DNA of 64,000 nt from Enterobacter oligotrophicus. Lineage in GTDB: Bacteria; Pseudomonadota; Gammaproteobacteria; Enterobacterales; Enterobacteriaceae. The position numbers were made by a program, and so were the translations under genes. The notes beneath the pieces are model-generated. The model made no database searches. It was not told the DNA's origin and saw only the letters and a program-made list of their open reading frames with translations. Location: the NCBI RefSeq assembly GCF_009176645.1, contig NZ_AP019007.1:3100001-3164000 (forward strand), in the 5' to 3' direction. Positions 2,761 to 8,299 of this stretch are shown here, one piece after another (positions within the stretch are counted from its first letter, which is position 1; each line of letters opens with the position of its first letter).

Positions 2761-5352
2761 TTATTCTCCCTTCAATAAGTTGGTAAGCTCAACTAAGCCC
2801 TGCATATCAAACTCATTACCTGTGAGTTGACCCATTATTTCCGCCAGTTCTTGCTCGGTGGTTTTTATCTCATGGGCCACTTGTGAATAGGTGACGGCGT
2901 ATTTATCAGCAAGGGCTTGCACCTGGCTGGTGAGCTGGCTAATCACTGCGTTTGGCATAGCTACGAGTTCGGTGCTCAATGGCGCAATCCATTTAAGGTG
3001 CAGCAGGTTGTTCACCTGTTCATCGGTTAAGGCTTCGATGGTTGTTTTGGTTTTTAGGTGCAGGGCAGTAGCGGCATCTTTGAACGTTTTCTTCAGGGCT
3101 TTTTCTTCATCGATGAGTTTATTCGCGCGAATGATTTTGGCTTCATAGGTTTCTTCTGCGAATTTAACTTTGCTGTCTTTTTGTTCTTTCAGGAAGGCTT
3201 TGGCGGCCTTGCTTAATTCGGCATTGGCAAAGCCGTCTTTGTTGTCTTTTACCGTATCTTGTTCTTTTTCTTCTTCGGTCAGGGATTCTAAAATTTCTTC
3301 CAGCGTGCTGGCGATTTCTGTCAGGCGGGTTTCTTTAGCCGCCAGAGCCTGTAAGTCATCATTTAAGTAAGTTTGTTGTACTAGATCAAAGGGCAATATG
3401 TGGCCTTTCCAGCCGTCTTGTACTTCAGTGTCCTGGCCGTTTTTTTTCTTTATAACAATGTTAGGATCAACTTGTTTAGTGGCAGCAAAGCCTTCAGTTT
3501 GCATCATTTCTAAATCAGCGCTGATGAGTTGCCATTGGTTGTTCAGACATTGATAAGCCTGGTATTTGTCGATTAAGGCTATGGGCGCTAAACGAGCAAA
3601 TAACTCGGCACTTAATACCGCCTCTTGCTGGTTACGCTTTACGCTTTGCCAGTTTTGTATTAATTGGGCGTTTAGCTGGTCATCAAAGCCATTAAAAGCC
3701 TGGTTGTAGGCGCTGATAAATTCTAACACTTGCGAGTGCCCGCTAATGCGGTCGTTGACGTCCTGTTTATCAATGGCAAGCTCACTGTAAGCAGCTGATT
3801 TTGGCGTAAACAAAGTACTGCGCAATTGAGGGAAGGCCTGCCAAAAGTTGTCTAACTCGGCAATTTCCCTATTGGGAATACCGCCGAGCATGGTGGCGTG
3901 TAAATCCCAGCTTTCTGCCGTCGCAGAGGAATCCACATAGCGCGGTATGTTGAGGTTGTAACCATTGTCGCGTAGGGTTTGTTTGCTCACCAGTTTCGAG
4001 AACTTGTCGATACTTTCGCGGTTAATCACCGCATCAGTAATGCGCTTGATATCACTGGCTTGCAGTTTGTTGTTTTTGCCTTCTTTCATAAAGTGTTTGG
4101 AGGCATCGACCACCAATACATCGGTGTTTTGGCGTTTTTGCTTGAGTACCAAAATCACTGTGGGAATGCCGGTGCCAAAAAAGATATTGGCCGGTAAACC
4201 AATAATGGCATCAATATGATTTTGTTCAATGAGTTGCTTGCGAATTTCACCTTCTTCACCACCACGGAACAAGACACCATGAGGTAGCACGATAGCCATA
4301 ATGCCATCGGGCTTTAGGTGATAGAGGTCGTGCAGTAAAAAAGCAAAATCCGCTTTGGTTTTAGGTGCCAGGCCAAAACGTGAATAGCGCGGATCGCTCT
4401 CTTTAAAGCTGGGGTCCCAGTTTTGTGAGTAAGGAGGGTTGGACACCACGGCATCAACATGTAAGGCGTAGTATGAGCCTTGAGGATCGCTGTCATCAAA
4501 ATACGGCCAATCCTCTTCCAGGGTGTCGCCATTACGGGTTTTAATGTTGCTAGCTTTAATACCGCGCATGATGAGGTTCATACGGGTTAGGTTGTAGGTG
4601 TTAGCTTTTAACTCTTGAGCGTAATAGGTGATGCAATCTTTATTTTTCGCGTATTTCTCGAATGCCTCACCGATATTGATCAGCAACGAACCTGAGCCAG
4701 AAGTAGGGTCGTAAATTTTGATAGTATCTTTGTGCTTTAACTCATGGGCGATGATGTTCGACATAAGTACCGAAACTTCATGAGGCGTATAAAACTCACC
4801 TGCTTTTTTACCAGCATTGGCGGCAAATTTTTCAATCAGGTATTCGTAAATGTAACCCAGTACGTCATACCCTAGATTGCCATTCATGGGAATGCTTTTG
4901 ATCAGGTGTAGTAAGTCGCTGATGGCTTTGGTACGTTTGCCCGAACTTTCACCCAGTTTGCTTAAACCTGTTTCTAAGGTGGTAAAGATGCCGTCAAACA
5001 GTTTTTTGTAAGTTGGCGAAATCAAACGGCTAAAGGCCGAAAGTGCATCACGTACGTTAGATTCGTTAAATTCGGATGTTGGATCAATCCATGTAGAAAA
5101 CAGATTATCGTAGGCAATAAAGTAGCCCAGATTGCTTTGCACGTATTCAACGGTGTCAGCGTCTTCTTCATTGAGAGCTTTGATGTCTTCGGGTGTCATC
5201 CCCTGTCTGGTGACAAACTGCACCAACTGGTCGCTTAGATACTTGTAGAAAATAAAGCCGAGTATGTAGTCTTTGTATTCGTTGGCTTCAATTTTAGACC
5301 GCATCTGGTTGGCAGATTCCCAGATTTTTGCAGCAAGCTGTTGTTTATTCAC
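2761..5352 (-). CDS. hsdM: Type I restriction-modification DNA methyltransferase HsdM (long form)
   Basis: Adenine N6-methyltransferase subunit of the type I system; with HsdS it methylates the recognition site. The AdoMet-binding motif is in DPTSGSGSLL and the catalytic N6-adenine motif is SNPPYSQNW. The N-terminal helical domain begins NKQQLAAKIWESANQMRS. I prefer the GTG at 5352, because family homology starts there and AGGA lies 8-11 bases upstream; an ATG-type start at 5442 adds 30 residues that look non-family. The product is about 863 residues against roughly 500-540 for many HsdM proteins. The extra C-terminal third is charged, with a stretch rich in Lys and Glu that looks coiled-coil. 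The stop is immediately followed by the hsdS start. Confidence 0.93.
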   Translation of the reverse strand: MNKQQLAAKIWESANQMRSKIEANEYKDYILGFIFYKYLSDQLVQFVTRQGMTPEDIKALNEEDADTVEYVQSNLGYFIAYDNLFSTWIDPTSEFNESNVRDALSAFSRLISPTYKKLFDGIFTTLETGLSKLGESSGKRTKAISDLLHLIKSIPMNGNLGYDVLGYIYEYLIEKFAANAGKKAGEFYTPHEVSVLMSNIIAHELKHKDTIKIYDPTSGSGSLLINIGEAFEKYAKNKDCITYYAQELKANTYNLTRMNLIMRGIKASNIKTRNGDTLEEDWPYFDDSDPQGSYYALHVDAVVSNPPYSQNWDPSFKESDPRYSRFGLAPKTKADFAFLLHDLYHLKPDGIMAIVLPHGVLFRGGEEGEIRKQLIEQNHIDAIIGLPANIFFGTGIPTVILVLKQKRQNTDVLVVDASKHFMKEGKNNKLQASDIKRITDAVINRESIDKFSKLVSKQTLRDNGYNLNIPRYVDSSATAESWDLHATMLGGIPNREIAELDNFWQAFPQLRSTLFTPKSAAYSELAIDKQDVNDRISGHSQVLEFISAYNQAFNGFDDQLNAQLIQNWQSVKRNQQEAVLSAELFARLAPIALIDKYQAYQCLNNQWQLISADLEMMQTEGFAATKQVDPNIVIKKKNGQDTEVQDGWKGHILPFDLVQQTYLNDDLQALAAKETRLTEIASTLEEILESLTEEEKEQDTVKDNKDGFANAELSKAAKAFLKEQKDSKVKFAEETYEAKIIRANKLIDEEKALKKTFKDAATALHLKTKTTIEALTDEQVNNLLHLKWIAPLSTELVAMPNAVISQLTSQVQALADKYAVTYSQVAHEIKTTEQELAEIMGQLTGNEFDMQGLVELTNLLKGE

Positions 5353-5477
5353 TATAAATCCTGTTAAAAGCAATTCTAATTCGAAAAGGGCTGTTTTAGG
5401 GTTTTGATTGTACTTTTGATAAGAGCTGCTTGCTAGCGGCAAGGCATTACGAACCTGTGTCAGTGAGCAGTCCGAAG

Positions 5478-5800
5478 TCTCGATATCGGTGCTTACCCTT
5501 ACCTGGGGCGACCTTTGGATCTGCCTTTCTTACGACGTATCCTGTAACTACGTGGCCCCACAGGAAAGTGACTATACTCACTACGCATTCAGCATCGCGC
5601 CAGAGGATTTTGAGCTGTTCTCGTATAAGCTGAAACAGACCGAAGTGACGGTCTGGAAAGACAACAAAAGCGAAGGGCAATCTTTCTATTTTCTTGATCC
5701 GGATGGACATAAGCTGGAGCTGCATGTGGGTAATTTAGCATCTCGACTGGCACAGTGCCGGGAGAAGCCTTACTCTGGAATGCGTTTCTGTCCTGGATAA
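5478..5800 (+). pseudogene. fosA: 5'-truncated and frameshifted fosA (fosfomycin glutathione transferase) remnant
   Basis: FosA adds glutathione to fosfomycin using Mn2+ and K+. The frame ending at the TAA 5798-5800 reads WGDLWICLS, then [11 protein letters not shown], then [14 protein letters not shown], which matches the C-terminal two thirds of enterobacterial FosA. The N-terminus, with the first metal-ligand histidine, is missing. Around 5488-5503 the expected G-A-Y-L-T-W is recovered only if one C is dropped from the CCC at 5497-5499, so a +1 frameshift is also present. Homology fades upstream of about 5478, where the DNA leading to the hsd genes begins. The gene should be inactive. A GTG at 5489 could still give a fragment of about 100 residues. 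Confidence 0.85.
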
Positions 5801-6092: not shown

Positions 6093-7094
6093 TCAAAACA
6101 CCGGCACCCCCAGCCCCACCTTCACCTCCCTCAACGTCGCCTGCGTCACCCCCTGCGCCCGTTCCGTCCCGCGCTTTAGCATCGCCATCAGTTCCCCCTT
6201 ATCCTGCATGTACATCGCCCGACGCTCCCGCATCGGTGCAATCAGTTCCTGCAAACACGCTTCCAGCTCGTTCTTACACGCCCGGTCGCCCAGCCCTCCC
6301 GCCTGATAGTGCGCCTTCATCGCCGCGACTTTCTCCTTGTCCGGATGAAACGCGTCGAGCCAGGTAAACACCACGTTCCCCTCAATCTGCCCAGGGTCGC
6401 TCACCTTCAGGTGGTTCGGGTCGGTGTACATGGCGCTGACCGCACGGTGAATGGTCTCTTCACTGGCTGAAAGGTGCAGCGTGTTGCCGAGCGATTTCGA
6501 CATCTTGGCGCTGCCGTCGATGCCGGGCAGGCGGCTGGTGTCGCTCAGCATCGCCTTACAGTGGCGCAGCACCGGGGCGGGCAGCAGGCTGTTCATCTTG
6601 TGCACAATCTCGTTGGTCTGCTCAATCATCGGAAGCTGGTCGTCGCCGACGGGCACGCACTCGGCCTTAAACGCGGTGATGTCCGCCGCCTGGCTGATAG
6701 GATAGGCCATAAACCCGACCGGCAGCGAGCGGGCAAAGCCTTTCTGCGCAATCTCGTTTTTCACCGTCGGGTTACGCTCCACGCGGGCGACGGTGACGAT
6801 GTTCATATACAGCATCGTCAGTTCGGCGAGGGCGGGCAGGGCGGACTGCAGGCAGATGGTGGTCAGGTTCGGGTCGATGCCCGCGGCGAGGTAGTCGGCC
6901 AGCACTTCGGGGATGTTGTCGCGAATTTTTTGCGGGTTGCTACCGTTGTCGGTCAGCCCCTGAAGGTCAGCAATCAGCACAAACTGCTTATGCGTTTGCT
7001 GGAGCGCCACGCGCTGGCGCAGCGAACCGACGAAATGGCCGAGGTGCAGCGGACCGGTTGGGCGATCGCCGGTGAGGATGGTTTGCGCGTTCAT
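6093..7094 (-). CDS. trpS2: Second tryptophanyl-tRNA synthetase (TrpRS II type)
   Basis: Class I aminoacyl-tRNA synthetase charging tRNA-Trp with tryptophan in the cytoplasm. At 333 residues it has normal family length. The HIGH-type signature is PLHLGH (15-20) and KMSKS lies at 197-201 in SAKMSKSLGN. The sequence differs widely from the housekeeping E. coli TrpS (TIGN, KMSKSDDN), which in E. coli lies elsewhere near dam, so this is probably an extra copy. In other bacteria second TrpRS enzymes can give resistance to indolmycin-type inhibitors; that role is only an inference here. The start ATG at 7094 has AAGGAG 7 bases upstream. A leader peptide and terminator lie just upstream (7131-7248), which implies control by charged tRNA-Trp. 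Confidence 0.93.
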   Translation of the reverse strand: MNAQTILTGDRPTGPLHLGHFVGSLRQRVALQQTHKQFVLIADLQGLTDNGSNPQKIRDNIPEVLADYLAAGIDPNLTTICLQSALPALAELTMLYMNIVTVARVERNPTVKNEIAQKGFARSLPVGFMAYPISQAADITAFKAECVPVGDDQLPMIEQTNEIVHKMNSLLPAPVLRHCKAMLSDTSRLPGIDGSAKMSKSLGNTLHLSASEETIHRAVSAMYTDPNHLKVSDPGQIEGNVVFTWLDAFHPDKEKVAAMKAHYQAGGLGDRACKNELEACLQELIAPMRERRAMYMQDKGELMAMLKRGTERAQGVTQATLREVKVGLGVPVF

Positions 7095-7130
7095 AAAGAC
7101 TCCTTAATGTGCAATTGCCGAAAGGGGTCT

Positions 7131-7193
7131 TAAAAATGTAAAAGCCGCCTTTCGGCGGCTATCTGAAAATGGGGAAAACTACTCCGCGCCGCC
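7131..7193 (-). promoter_or_regulatory. Putative trp-type attenuator (antiterminator and terminator hairpins) of the second TrpRS gene
   Basis: On the minus strand AGCCGCC (7154-7160), GAAA loop, GGCGGCT (7143-7149) forms a GC-rich hairpin followed by a T-rich run (7131-7143), giving an intrinsic terminator 36 bases before the gene start. The upstream GGCGGC at 7188-7193 can instead pair with the GCCGCC at 7154-7159, which would destroy the terminator. The same upstream segment (7181-7193) can pair with ACTCCG inside the leader ORF (7233-7238). This is the 1:2, 2:3, 3:4 arrangement of ribosome-mediated attenuators. Pairing was judged by eye; no energies were computed. Confidence 0.85.
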
Positions 7194-7194
7194 T

Positions 7195-7248
7195 TTAAGA
7201 AGGCAGCCACCAGCGGTTTACGGTGAGTACGGCGGAGTGTGTGTTCAT
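7195..7248 (-). CDS. Putative trp leader peptide with tandem Trp codons
   Basis: A 17-codon ORF, MNTHSAVLTVNRWWLPS, ends in TAA at 7195-7197. Two adjacent TGG codons (13 and 14, at 7207-7212) precede the terminator hairpin of the TrpRS gene. The start ATG at 7248 has a weak AGG 8-10 bases upstream. When charged tRNA-Trp is scarce, the ribosome should stall on the Trp pair, freeing segment 2 to pair with segment 3 so that transcription continues. No strong promoter stands out in the 40 bases between the lacI-type gene stop and this ORF. Transcription may begin inside the end of that gene or read through from it. Confidence 0.82.
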   Translation of the reverse strand: MNTHSAVLTVNRWWLPS

Positions 7249-7288
7249 TAAATTAACCTATCACGCCTGAGCGCAGGGGTAAAGCGAC

Positions 7289-8299
7289 TCAGGTCTGGTT
7301 GCTTGAGGCGCGCACCTTCAGCCTGCCCGCCAGCGTCACGTGCGTGGCGGCATCTTCCTGATTGCACAGATACTCCACCGCCAGTCGTCCCAGCTCACTA
7401 TAAGGGAGCTGAATACTGGTTAGAGACGGAGTGAGCTGCTCGGAGATCTTCTGGTCATCGTAGCCCGCCAGCAGCATGTCCTGCGGGATACGAACGCCGT
7501 TCACCGCCAGCGCCTGATAGCAGCCAATCGCCAGCCAGTCGCTGGCGCAGAAGATGGCATCCGGTCGTTCGTCCAGCGCCAATAGCGCCGTGGTGGCGGT
7601 AAAGGACTCGCTAAACTGCCAGTTGGTCTGGCGTACCAGACTCTCATCACAGGCTAAATCGGCCTGTTGCAGCGCGGCCTGGTAGCCTGCCAGCCGCTGG
7701 CGGGAGGCCTCCATCCAGCTTTCACCAGTGATATGGGCGATGCGCGTCGCGCCGCAGGCGATGAGATGTTTCGTTACCTGAAAGGCGTTGGCGTAGTCGT
7801 CCGGAATAAACGACGGCAGCAGCGGCGAGCCGGGGTCGCGCTGGTTCAGTAATACCAGCGGAATGCGGGTGCAGTCCTGGAATTCAGTCATATCGACCAG
7901 CGTGGTGACGGGGGAGGCGAGGATAATCCCCACGCAGTTGCGTTTCTCCAGCTGGCGGATAATATTCAGCGCCAGCTCAATATCATCGCCGTAGTCGTAT
8001 ACAGTGAGCAGGGATTCGTTGCGCCATGCGGCTTCCCGCGCCTGGCTGATGGCGTCGATAAACGGATCGTAGCTCTGTAACGAGCTGACCAGCAGGGCGA
8101 TCTCTTCCTGGTTGCGCGGGGCGTGAATGGCGGGAAGGCGGTCGTAGCCGAGTTCAGTGGCGATGCTGATGACCCGCTGGCGCGTGTCGTCGCTGAGCTT
8201 GATGTTGCGGGACTGGTTGAGCACCAGCGATACCGTCGCCTGCGATACCCCCGCCGCCCGCGCAATATCGTTCATCGTGACTTTGGTCTTTCGCTTCAT
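7289..8299 (-). CDS. LacI-family transcriptional regulator
   Basis: A 336-residue repressor-type regulator. The N-terminal HTH with hinge is clear: VTMNDIARAAGVSQATVSLVLNQS (about 7-31). A periplasmic-binding-protein-like sugar-sensing domain follows (about 60-330) and includes DAIFCASDWLAIG and ITGESW. It is divergent from the glycoside hydrolase and sugar transporter genes, so it most likely controls them with a sugar or glycoside as inducer. The ligand is not known. The stop lies 40 bases before the trp-type leader ORF on the same strand, so read-through into the TrpRS gene is possible. Confidence 0.92.
   Translation of the reverse strand: MKRKTKVTMNDIARAAGVSQATVSLVLNQSRNIKLSDDTRQRVISIATELGYDRLPAIHAPRNQEEIALLVSSLQSYDPFIDAISQAREAAWRNESLLTVYDYGDDIELALNIIRQLEKRNCVGIILASPVTTLVDMTEFQDCTRIPLVLLNQRDPGSPLLPSFIPDDYANAFQVTKHLIACGATRIAHITGESWMEASRQRLAGYQAALQQADLACDESLVRQTNWQFSESFTATTALLALDERPDAIFCASDWLAIGCYQALAVNGVRIPQDMLLAGYDDQKISEQLTPSLTSIQLPYSELGRLAVEYLCNQEDAATHVTLAGRLKVRASSNQT

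Follow-up and report, generated by a model that had tools for sequence, protein, structure and literature searches.

In the E. coli trpL attenuator, tandem Trp codons are combined with an antiterminator and a terminator, and the choice between these structures depends on ribosome stalling, as is proposed for the leader described here. The pheST attenuator likewise represents leader-peptide attenuation of an aminoacyl-tRNA synthetase (aaRS) operon; however, it involves the main enzyme and Phe codons rather than a spare gene. In Bacillota, tRNA charging is sensed upstream of aaRS genes by the T-box. Leader attenuation of an aaRS gene is not unprecedented, and attenuation of an auxiliary trpS has already been reported in Streptomyces. 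In particular, for trpS in Streptomyces, a classical attenuator is predicted upstream of trpS2 in S. avermitilis in PMC1262725, which also mentions pheST attenuation in gammaproteobacteria, and the reference list of PMC4787780 includes a 2010 J. Bacteriol. title on the auxiliary gene of S. coelicolor. TrpL2, which precedes trpS in S. lividans, is described as leaderless and, unlike the leader analysed here, as having a single Trp and lacking a uridine stretch (PMC8079986). A leaderless trpL, whose 5' end coincides with the leader ATG, is also described for Sinorhizobium meliloti trpE(G) (PMC7298713); its start is like that predicted for the present leader, but it belongs to a biosynthesis operon of an alphaproteobacterium. 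In bacilli, additional hisS genes are reported to be under leader-peptide control in PMC2965389, the main text of which does not name trpS. Auxiliary aaRSs are reviewed in PMC9437257, Streptomyces paralogues and self-resistance are covered by PMC7157823 and PMC6804068, and trpS2 appears in a table of regulated genes in PMC11000858. Among titles and the beginnings of abstracts, with most subscription journals outside this scope, no description of such control in gammaproteobacteria was found; earlier reports may exist, e.g., in surveys from 2001 and 2004 that PMC1262725 cites.

The locus described here comes from Enterobacter oligotrophicus and was analysed within a stretch of 64,000 nucleotides (the window). 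On the minus strand, lacI (stop codon ending at 7289) is followed, 41 nt further on, by a leader ORF and then by a hairpin (7160-7143), its T-rich tail, and trpS2 (Table 1). An earlier note on this DNA had proposed a Trp attenuator, and this reading is supported by the conservation of the leader and by the coevolution of its alternative pairings: the region is, with a probability of roughly 0.88, a ribosome-mediated attenuator that would restrict trpS2 expression to conditions in which Trp-tRNA(Trp) is scarce. In contrast to E. coli trpL, the trpS2 leader would control an aaRS gene, lacks a Shine-Dalgarno sequence (SD), and possibly includes an SD-sequestering arm. With the attenuator of the Streptomyces auxiliary trpS it shares a Trp-codon leader, a start reported as leaderless in S. 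lividans and predicted to be so here, and a second TrpRS gene; it differs in its occurrence in Gamma-, Beta-, and Alphaproteobacteria and in Deinococcus, in an enzyme that is 39% identical, and in a candidate anti-SD arm in many loci.

Table 1. Features of the trpS2 locus in the window, listed in the direction of transcription
Feature	Position	Strand	Remarks
Putative -35 hexamer, TTTACC	7278..7283	-	17-nt spacer to -10
Putative -10 hexamer, TAGGTT, with upstream TG	7255..7260	-	Predicted transcription start at or next to 7248
Leader ORF, 17 codons, MNTHSAVLTVNRWWLPS	7195..7248	-	ATG 7248-7246, TGGTGG 7212-7207, TAA 7197-7195
Segment 1, GCTGCCT	7201..7207	-	Predicted to pair with A if leader fully translated or untranslated; swap test 0/5000
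Segment A, AGGCGGC	7188..7194	-	Can pair with 1 or with B (antiterminator); A:B swap test 44/5000
CGGAGT, outer protector pairing with leader-start ACTCCG	7181..7186	-	Fold; coevolution 1/5000
Segment B, AGCCGCC	7154..7160	-	5' arm of terminator, 3' arm of antiterminator
Segment C, GAAA loop (7153-7150) and GGCGGCT (7149-7143)	7143..7153	-	Terminator 3' arm
Segment D, AAGACCCCTTTCGGC, candidate anti-Shine-Dalgarno arm	7117..7131	-	D:E and C:D swap tests 0/5000 each
Segment E, AAGGAGTCTT, Shine-Dalgarno region of trpS2	7096..7105	-	Can pair with D
trpS2, auxiliary tryptophanyl-tRNA synthetase, 333 aa	6093..7094	-	TIGR00233 trpS 216 bits vs cut-off 177

Two further genes lie near trpS2 in the window: a minus-strand ORF (2761-5442) that matches the type I restriction-modification subunit HsdM (TIGR00497, 341 bits) and, downstream of trpS2, a plus-strand ORF of 103 amino acids (5489-5800), which we take to resemble part of a fosfomycin thiol transferase. 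A predicted FosA8-like gene adjoins trpS2 on an E. coli plasmid (L083).

According to the proposed mechanism, transcription would start at or next to the leader AUG, and the ribosome would load on a leaderless leader ORF. With ample Trp-tRNA, the ribosome would reach the stop codon, segment A would be masked or paired with segment 1, and the B:C terminator would form; in read-through RNA, D would pair with the trpS2 SD (E). When Trp-tRNA is low, or when TrpS is inactivated or inhibited, the ribosome would stall at the Trp codons and cover segment 1. The A:B antiterminator would then form, C would be free to take D, and the SD would be released, so that one stall would open both transcription and translation of trpS2. 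Inspection of the window and of the alignment, with the generally known size of the ribosome footprint, gives a matching geometry: a ribosome stalled at the Trp codons would mask segment 1 but not A, and one at the stop codon would mask A.

The 17-codon ORF with adjacent Trp codons (WW) claimed in the earlier note is present on the minus strand, i.e., the region has the short leader ORF with tandem cognate codons that is typical of amino-acid attenuators. Among 80 loci (L001-L080), the best 80 of at least 583 trpS2 relatives with best-segment identities of 98-61%, 78 have a WW leader (an ORF that starts with ATG and contains neighbouring Trp codons) no more than approx. 220 nt from the protein match. 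In L022, the ORF is kept but Leu has replaced one of the two Trp residues, leaving a single Trp, and Acinetobacter soli L077, the sole such case among the best 80 loci, has no leader; the L077 genome holds one TrpRS gene only. A leader frame or Trp pair lost while the surrounding region is kept, which the earlier note had named as evidence against attenuation, is thus not the pattern of this set.

The same association was found in wider samples. In a family sample of 79 genomes, trpS2 (E up to 1e-60) occurs in 11, all of which have a WW leader upstream, ten at the usual distance and L141 with the leader approx. 147 nt further off, as extra sequence of about this length separates D from the trpS2 SD. 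The twelfth model match, L139, related to Salmonella enterica diarizonae (approx. 89% identity over the locus), has a trpS2 broken by deletions and a leader in which WW has become RR (Arg-Arg); it is a natural control, in one case only. The ordinary TrpRS was sought in 26 genomes, and each of the 23 leader-bearing ones, including that of the single-Trp leader L022, has two TrpRS genes, as does the genome of the window, where the second gene likewise accompanies a housekeeping one. Among the three genomes lacking a WW leader, that of L077 and G082 have one TrpRS and G022 has two, the trpS2 match of G022 being partial and lying at a contig end. G082 and G022 belong to a class-wide sample of 184 genomes, which told little about the leader and in which three (one partial) have trpS2-like matches of at least 55% identity to the L076 protein; a search of both strands found no WW leader at G082, where the TrpRS is the sole one, or at G022.

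The unit also occurs on plasmids. On the E. coli plasmid NZ_CP147089, in another gene context, the stretch homologous to the window begins 27 nt upstream of the leader ATG and ends with the trpS2 stop codon. A DNA search of 5426 complete E. coli genomes located trpS2 in three, always on a plasmid and once as a fragment. The Klebsiella plasmid records H22 to H30 (nine among the matches listed) match residues 79-333 of TrpS2 only, and in two of the nine the match lies under an annotated IS1 transposase; these copies are apparently broken.

The two TrpRS proteins of E. oligotrophicus, TrpS2 and ordinary TrpS, are 26% identical. Like control of ordinary trpS was considered and rejected, since this gene overlaps the preceding ORF by 8 nt, which leaves no room for a leader directly before it. 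TrpS2 has intact HIGH-like and KMSKS motifs, and its closest solved relative by sequence (374 bits) is Deinococcus radiodurans TrpRS II (2a4m, 1yi8). The latter enzyme is known for partnering nitric oxide synthase (PMC9437257).

If trpS2 is indeed held in reserve, the purpose of the switch could be to withstand indolmycin and other TrpRS inhibitors; the alternative is a general backup for times of Trp shortage or for cells in which TrpS is attacked by kinase toxins, e.g., HipA2. We rate the former purpose at slightly below even odds. It is favoured by 15 TrpS2-type sequences with Gln where ordinary TrpRS has His, presumably His43 in the B. stearothermophilus numbering. A change of that His to Asn is reported to confer indolmycin resistance (PMC4899734), and the auxiliary TrpRS1 of Streptomyces, described as indolmycin-resistant (PMC9437257), also speaks for this purpose. 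An Asp described as contacting indole (PMC10201369) is replaced in TrpS2, although other TrpRS types in the comparison also lack it. These residues suggest indolmycin resistance of TrpS2, and the inhibitor scenario of the earlier note is plausible. However, the gene of Pseudoalteromonas luteoviolacea DSM 6061 adjoins violacein genes, and the violacein pathway consumes tryptophan, a setting that suits Trp shortage as well. In this locus (L076:2444-5962), trpS2 stands beside an opposite-strand VioE gene (Pfam PF18234, E 7.7e-81). The indolmycin cluster of P. luteoviolacea producers is reported to include a TrpRS gene (PMC5069768), and HipA2 is described as inactivating TrpS in Caulobacter (PMC8545095).

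The leader ORF is probably leaderless because a promoter-like element stands at a fixed distance from its ATG, and transcription is predicted to start at the A of this codon. In 37 ungapped sequences anchored on the ATG, a -35 element is located at -35 (T at -35 in 29 and at -34 in 23), followed by TG at -15/-14 and by a -10 element that occupies -12 to -7. Among 39 representative leaders, a set that includes single members of other classes and phyla and in which the upstream in-frame ATG was taken as the start of L094, TANNNT begins exactly at -12 in 24 and at -14 to -11 in 32; other offsets have a mean of 0.67 and a maximum of 4. In these 39 representatives, no SD was detected before the leader ATG: the mean anti-SD energy is -1.95 vs -1.77 kcal/mol at random positions, and 9 of the starts (random, 19%) reach -4 kcal/mol or below. 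The trpS2 starts average -6.91 in 37 of the 39, a value that is no independent test, as these starts were picked for an SD-like motif.

When 79 sequences were aligned over the stretch bounded by the Trp codons and the trpS2 ATG, a succession of segments, 1-A-B-C-D-E, became apparent. Coevolution was assessed in 26 representatives below 80% identity by a swap test, in which the duplex energy of each segment with its own partner is compared with that of partners exchanged between loci; phylogeny is handled solely through negative controls. The permutations (of 5000) that performed as well as the own partners numbered 0 for 1:A, 44 for A:B, 0 each for B:C, C:D, and D:E, and 83 for B:D, vs 4910 for A:C, 4735 for A:D, 3195 for B:E, and 1654 for A:E, the non-adjacent controls. 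The covarying stems for which the earlier note had advised looking are thus found along 1-A-B-C, with no signal between non-adjacent segments. Both inner pairings given in that note exist, namely the antiterminator of GGCGGC (7188-7193) with 7154-7159 and the terminator of 7154-7160 with 7143-7149, and they are mutually exclusive, as A:B and B:C use the common arm B. A further conserved helix, between GCTGCCT (7207-7201) and AGGCGGC (7194-7188), had not been noticed. The outer pairing of ACTCCG fared less well in its exact form, which is not identical in neighbours; what holds is coevolution between the 5' part of the leader and the stretch directly 3' of A (-7.40 kcal/mol for own partners vs -5.78 kcal/mol for swapped ones; 1/5000 permutations; 26 representatives).

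Pair counts were made in 25 Enterobacterales rows, including that of L022, although it is wrongly cut at both ends. The off-state {1:A, B:C, D:E} is paired in 86.9% of cells and the on-state {A:B, C:D} in 92.3%; after sliding, the corresponding values are 28.7-54.0% and 41.1-63.7%. Double-change cells numbered 14 vs 6.8 shuffled and 6 vs 2.1 shuffled (0/500 each). Off-state pairs with double changes showed no excess in these rows (4 vs 4.2 shuffled; 375/500), and neither did further pair types (220/500 and 458/500). Five of the six A:B pairs are invariant in the 25 sequences, the outer flank of D:E has 58% of its cells paired, and in 15 rows a particular C:D pair is disrupted.

Folding, which the earlier note had recommended, gives z = -3.76 for the 131-nt leader RNA, and none of 200 shuffles folds as well. 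The terminator-like hairpin is the sole one found by a scan of both strands of 7080-7400, and the U tract 3' of segment C is present but interrupted in the window. Under a strict terminator test upstream of trpS2 (L001-L080), 53 of the 78 WW leaders pass and 25 fail; the latter include the close relatives L001-L006 (interrupted U tract) and loci of Moritella, Marinobacter, Photobacterium, and Pseudoalteromonas. As a chance control, a detector was applied that requires an ATG ORF of 8-35 codons with TGGTGG followed within 150 nt by a strict terminator. On both strands of the window, it returned five ORFs, one of which, the trpS2 leader, has a terminator. On both strands of 965,674 flank bases, i.e., locus sequence outside the 320 nt upstream of trpS2 and with L082 left out, it returned 71 ORFs, three with a terminator, one of them being the window leader again (L081). 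A chance origin of the WW leader was rejected on the basis of its conservation and of this flank control with one detector.

Segment D has two complementary partners: the trpS2 SD region (E) and, in the terminator, the loop with the 3' arm, where the GAAAGGCGG part of segment C can pair with D. This arrangement suggests control of transcription and of translation, though not in every lineage. We give a second, translational level of control about an even chance of being real. The reading that attenuation acts on transcription only, D:E being a by-product such as an RNA-stability hairpin, is rated somewhat lower, as a tentative alternative. Classical trp-type attenuators work by termination alone, a point in favour of this alternative. 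Moreover, with A:B forced, the SD does not clearly open at equilibrium in 16 of the 26 representatives: it opens by more than 0.1 in 10, closes in one (L080), and stays within 0.1 in 15. When D:E was scored singly against 200 letter shuffles of D in 9 of the 11 family loci (some further, some repeated; the start rule missed L146 and L147), at least 190 shuffles were beaten in three (L140, L142, and L143). In the other six, the number of shuffles matching the native helix was 20 in the window copy (L081), 46 in L145, 48 in L144, 56 in L141, 106 in L149, and 179 in L148, so that L148 and L149 have no D:E signal in this test. However, over the 26 representatives the coevolution of D:E and of C:D equals that of the terminator itself, and the 25 leaders without a good U tract are represented in the swap set by loci that show D:E helices. 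The mean unpaired probability of the SD in these representatives is 0.22 with B:C forced, vs 0.37 with D shuffled, and 0.30 with A:B forced, vs 0.38 with D shuffled. The representative set as a whole supports sequestration of the SD by D, but not every locus shows it, and control is perhaps not by termination alone. Release of the SD through C:D is the weakest part of the model, as it is predicted at equilibrium for some representatives only and otherwise needs a kinetic argument; where equilibrium fails, release would depend on C and D being synthesized earlier than E.

In lineages without a U tract, such as Moritella, Photobacterium, Pseudoalteromonas, and Marinobacter, all with loci that fail the strict terminator test, attenuation might instead be mainly translational and of the erm type, with termination as an added layer in Enterobacterales and Aeromonas; this appears unlikely. 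The two most stable D:E duplexes do occur in these groups (L075, -17.3 kcal/mol; L067, -16.7 kcal/mol; a helix of 12 base pairs in each), followed by Edwardsiella L047 (-15.1 kcal/mol) and L070 (-14.9 kcal/mol), and forcing A:B in L072 opens the SD from 0.01 to 0.61. However, in six loci release of the erm type is not predicted at equilibrium, because forcing A:B frees the SD by no more than 0.02 in five loci (L067, L070, L074, L075, and L076) and closes it from 0.94 to 0.60 in L080.

Attenuation in response to Trp-tRNA remains the favoured reading of the locus because the WW leader is kept in 78 of 80 loci and 11 of 11 family genomes, segments coevolve in swap tests and pair counts, WW has become RR beside the broken gene of L139, and all 23 leader-bearing genomes have two TrpRS genes. 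It is also favoured because trpS2 (STM4508) is reported to be 2-fold up together with the trp genes in Salmonella biofilm (PMC2805695). Counted against it are the 25 leaders failing the strict terminator test, the two TrpRS genes of G022 without a WW leader, the weak or absent D:E signal in six of nine loci, and the double changes of off-state pairs at shuffled frequency.

Known RNA families were rejected as an explanation: an Rfam search of the window gave no match at the gathering score, a T-box search of 7050-7300 gave none at E up to 1, and ten diverse trpS2-type loci gave no T-box at the gathering score. A uxuA match of 20.2 bits, vs a cut-off of 66.8, was taken as chance. The idea that the WW ORF is fortuitous and the hairpins are just the terminator region of lacI, for which the 41-nt distance from the lacI stop might speak, is refuted by the conservation of the leader in 78 of 80 loci and by a leader-trpS2 unit kept in another gene context on the E. 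coli plasmid, and is regarded as extremely improbable.

Single examples of a WW leader before a trpS2-like gene were found in Deinococcus (L090), Burkholderia (L091), Variovorax (L094), and Methylocystis (L092), as well as in the gammaproteobacterium Salinivibrio (L093). In Streptomyces (L097), a WW leader, MQLSSCLSWWRSS, also precedes such a gene; the leader core of Streptomyces sp. BHT-5-2, TGGTGGCGCTCCTCGTAGGAGCGGC, closely resembles that of Methylocystis. The Streptomyces unit has a similar core and promoter spacing to those described here; the proteins are 39% identical, and RNA model R1 has no match in Streptomyces. Of 30 sources searched with R1, 20 were matched at E up to 1 (15 below 0.01); the ten without a match were L077, L082, L086, L089, L090, L095, L096, L097, L099, and L108, and neither the Streptomyces nor the Deinococcus leader was found. 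No WW leader within 320 nt and no T-box were found in the plasmid-collection loci of Staphylococcus (L089), Agathobacter (L096), Rhizobium (L095), and Acinetobacter (L086), one each. It is possible, if rather doubtful, that a compact cassette, composed of a promoter at the leader AUG, a Trp-Trp leader, a six-segment RNA, and a spare TrpRS, has been passed between Proteobacteria, Deinococcota, and Actinomycetota and acts as a dual-level attenuator, in which one stall would prevent termination and then hand the terminator 3' arm to the anti-SD arm.

Trp-tRNA synthetases of this type are also carried by Staphylococcus plasmids (relatives approx. 52% identical to TrpS2; 26 Staphylococcus records among the matches listed, some weaker), and one such plasmid locus (L089:3001-4008) has neither a T-box nor a Trp leader. 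Downstream of the trpS2-type gene of Acinetobacter baumannii, L086:3612-3796 matches the Rfam Aar sRNA (148.5 bits).

Beyond the earlier note, the comparison adds a leader that is probably leaderless, the candidate anti-SD arm D, and examples of WW leaders in alpha- and betaproteobacteria, Deinococcus, and Streptomyces. In Salmonella, trpS is reported to tolerate some transposon insertions, in contrast to E. coli, where it is essential, and trpS2 has been suggested as the substitute (PMC3487940); a trpS2 attenuator would bear on why these insertions are tolerated and on a possible intrinsic tolerance to TrpRS inhibitors. If the proposed control is true, it would provide carrier enterobacteria, here including Enterobacter, Lelliottia, Citrobacter, Klebsiella, and Salmonella species, with a simple rule for keeping a spare TrpRS silent and for calling it up when Trp-tRNA falls.
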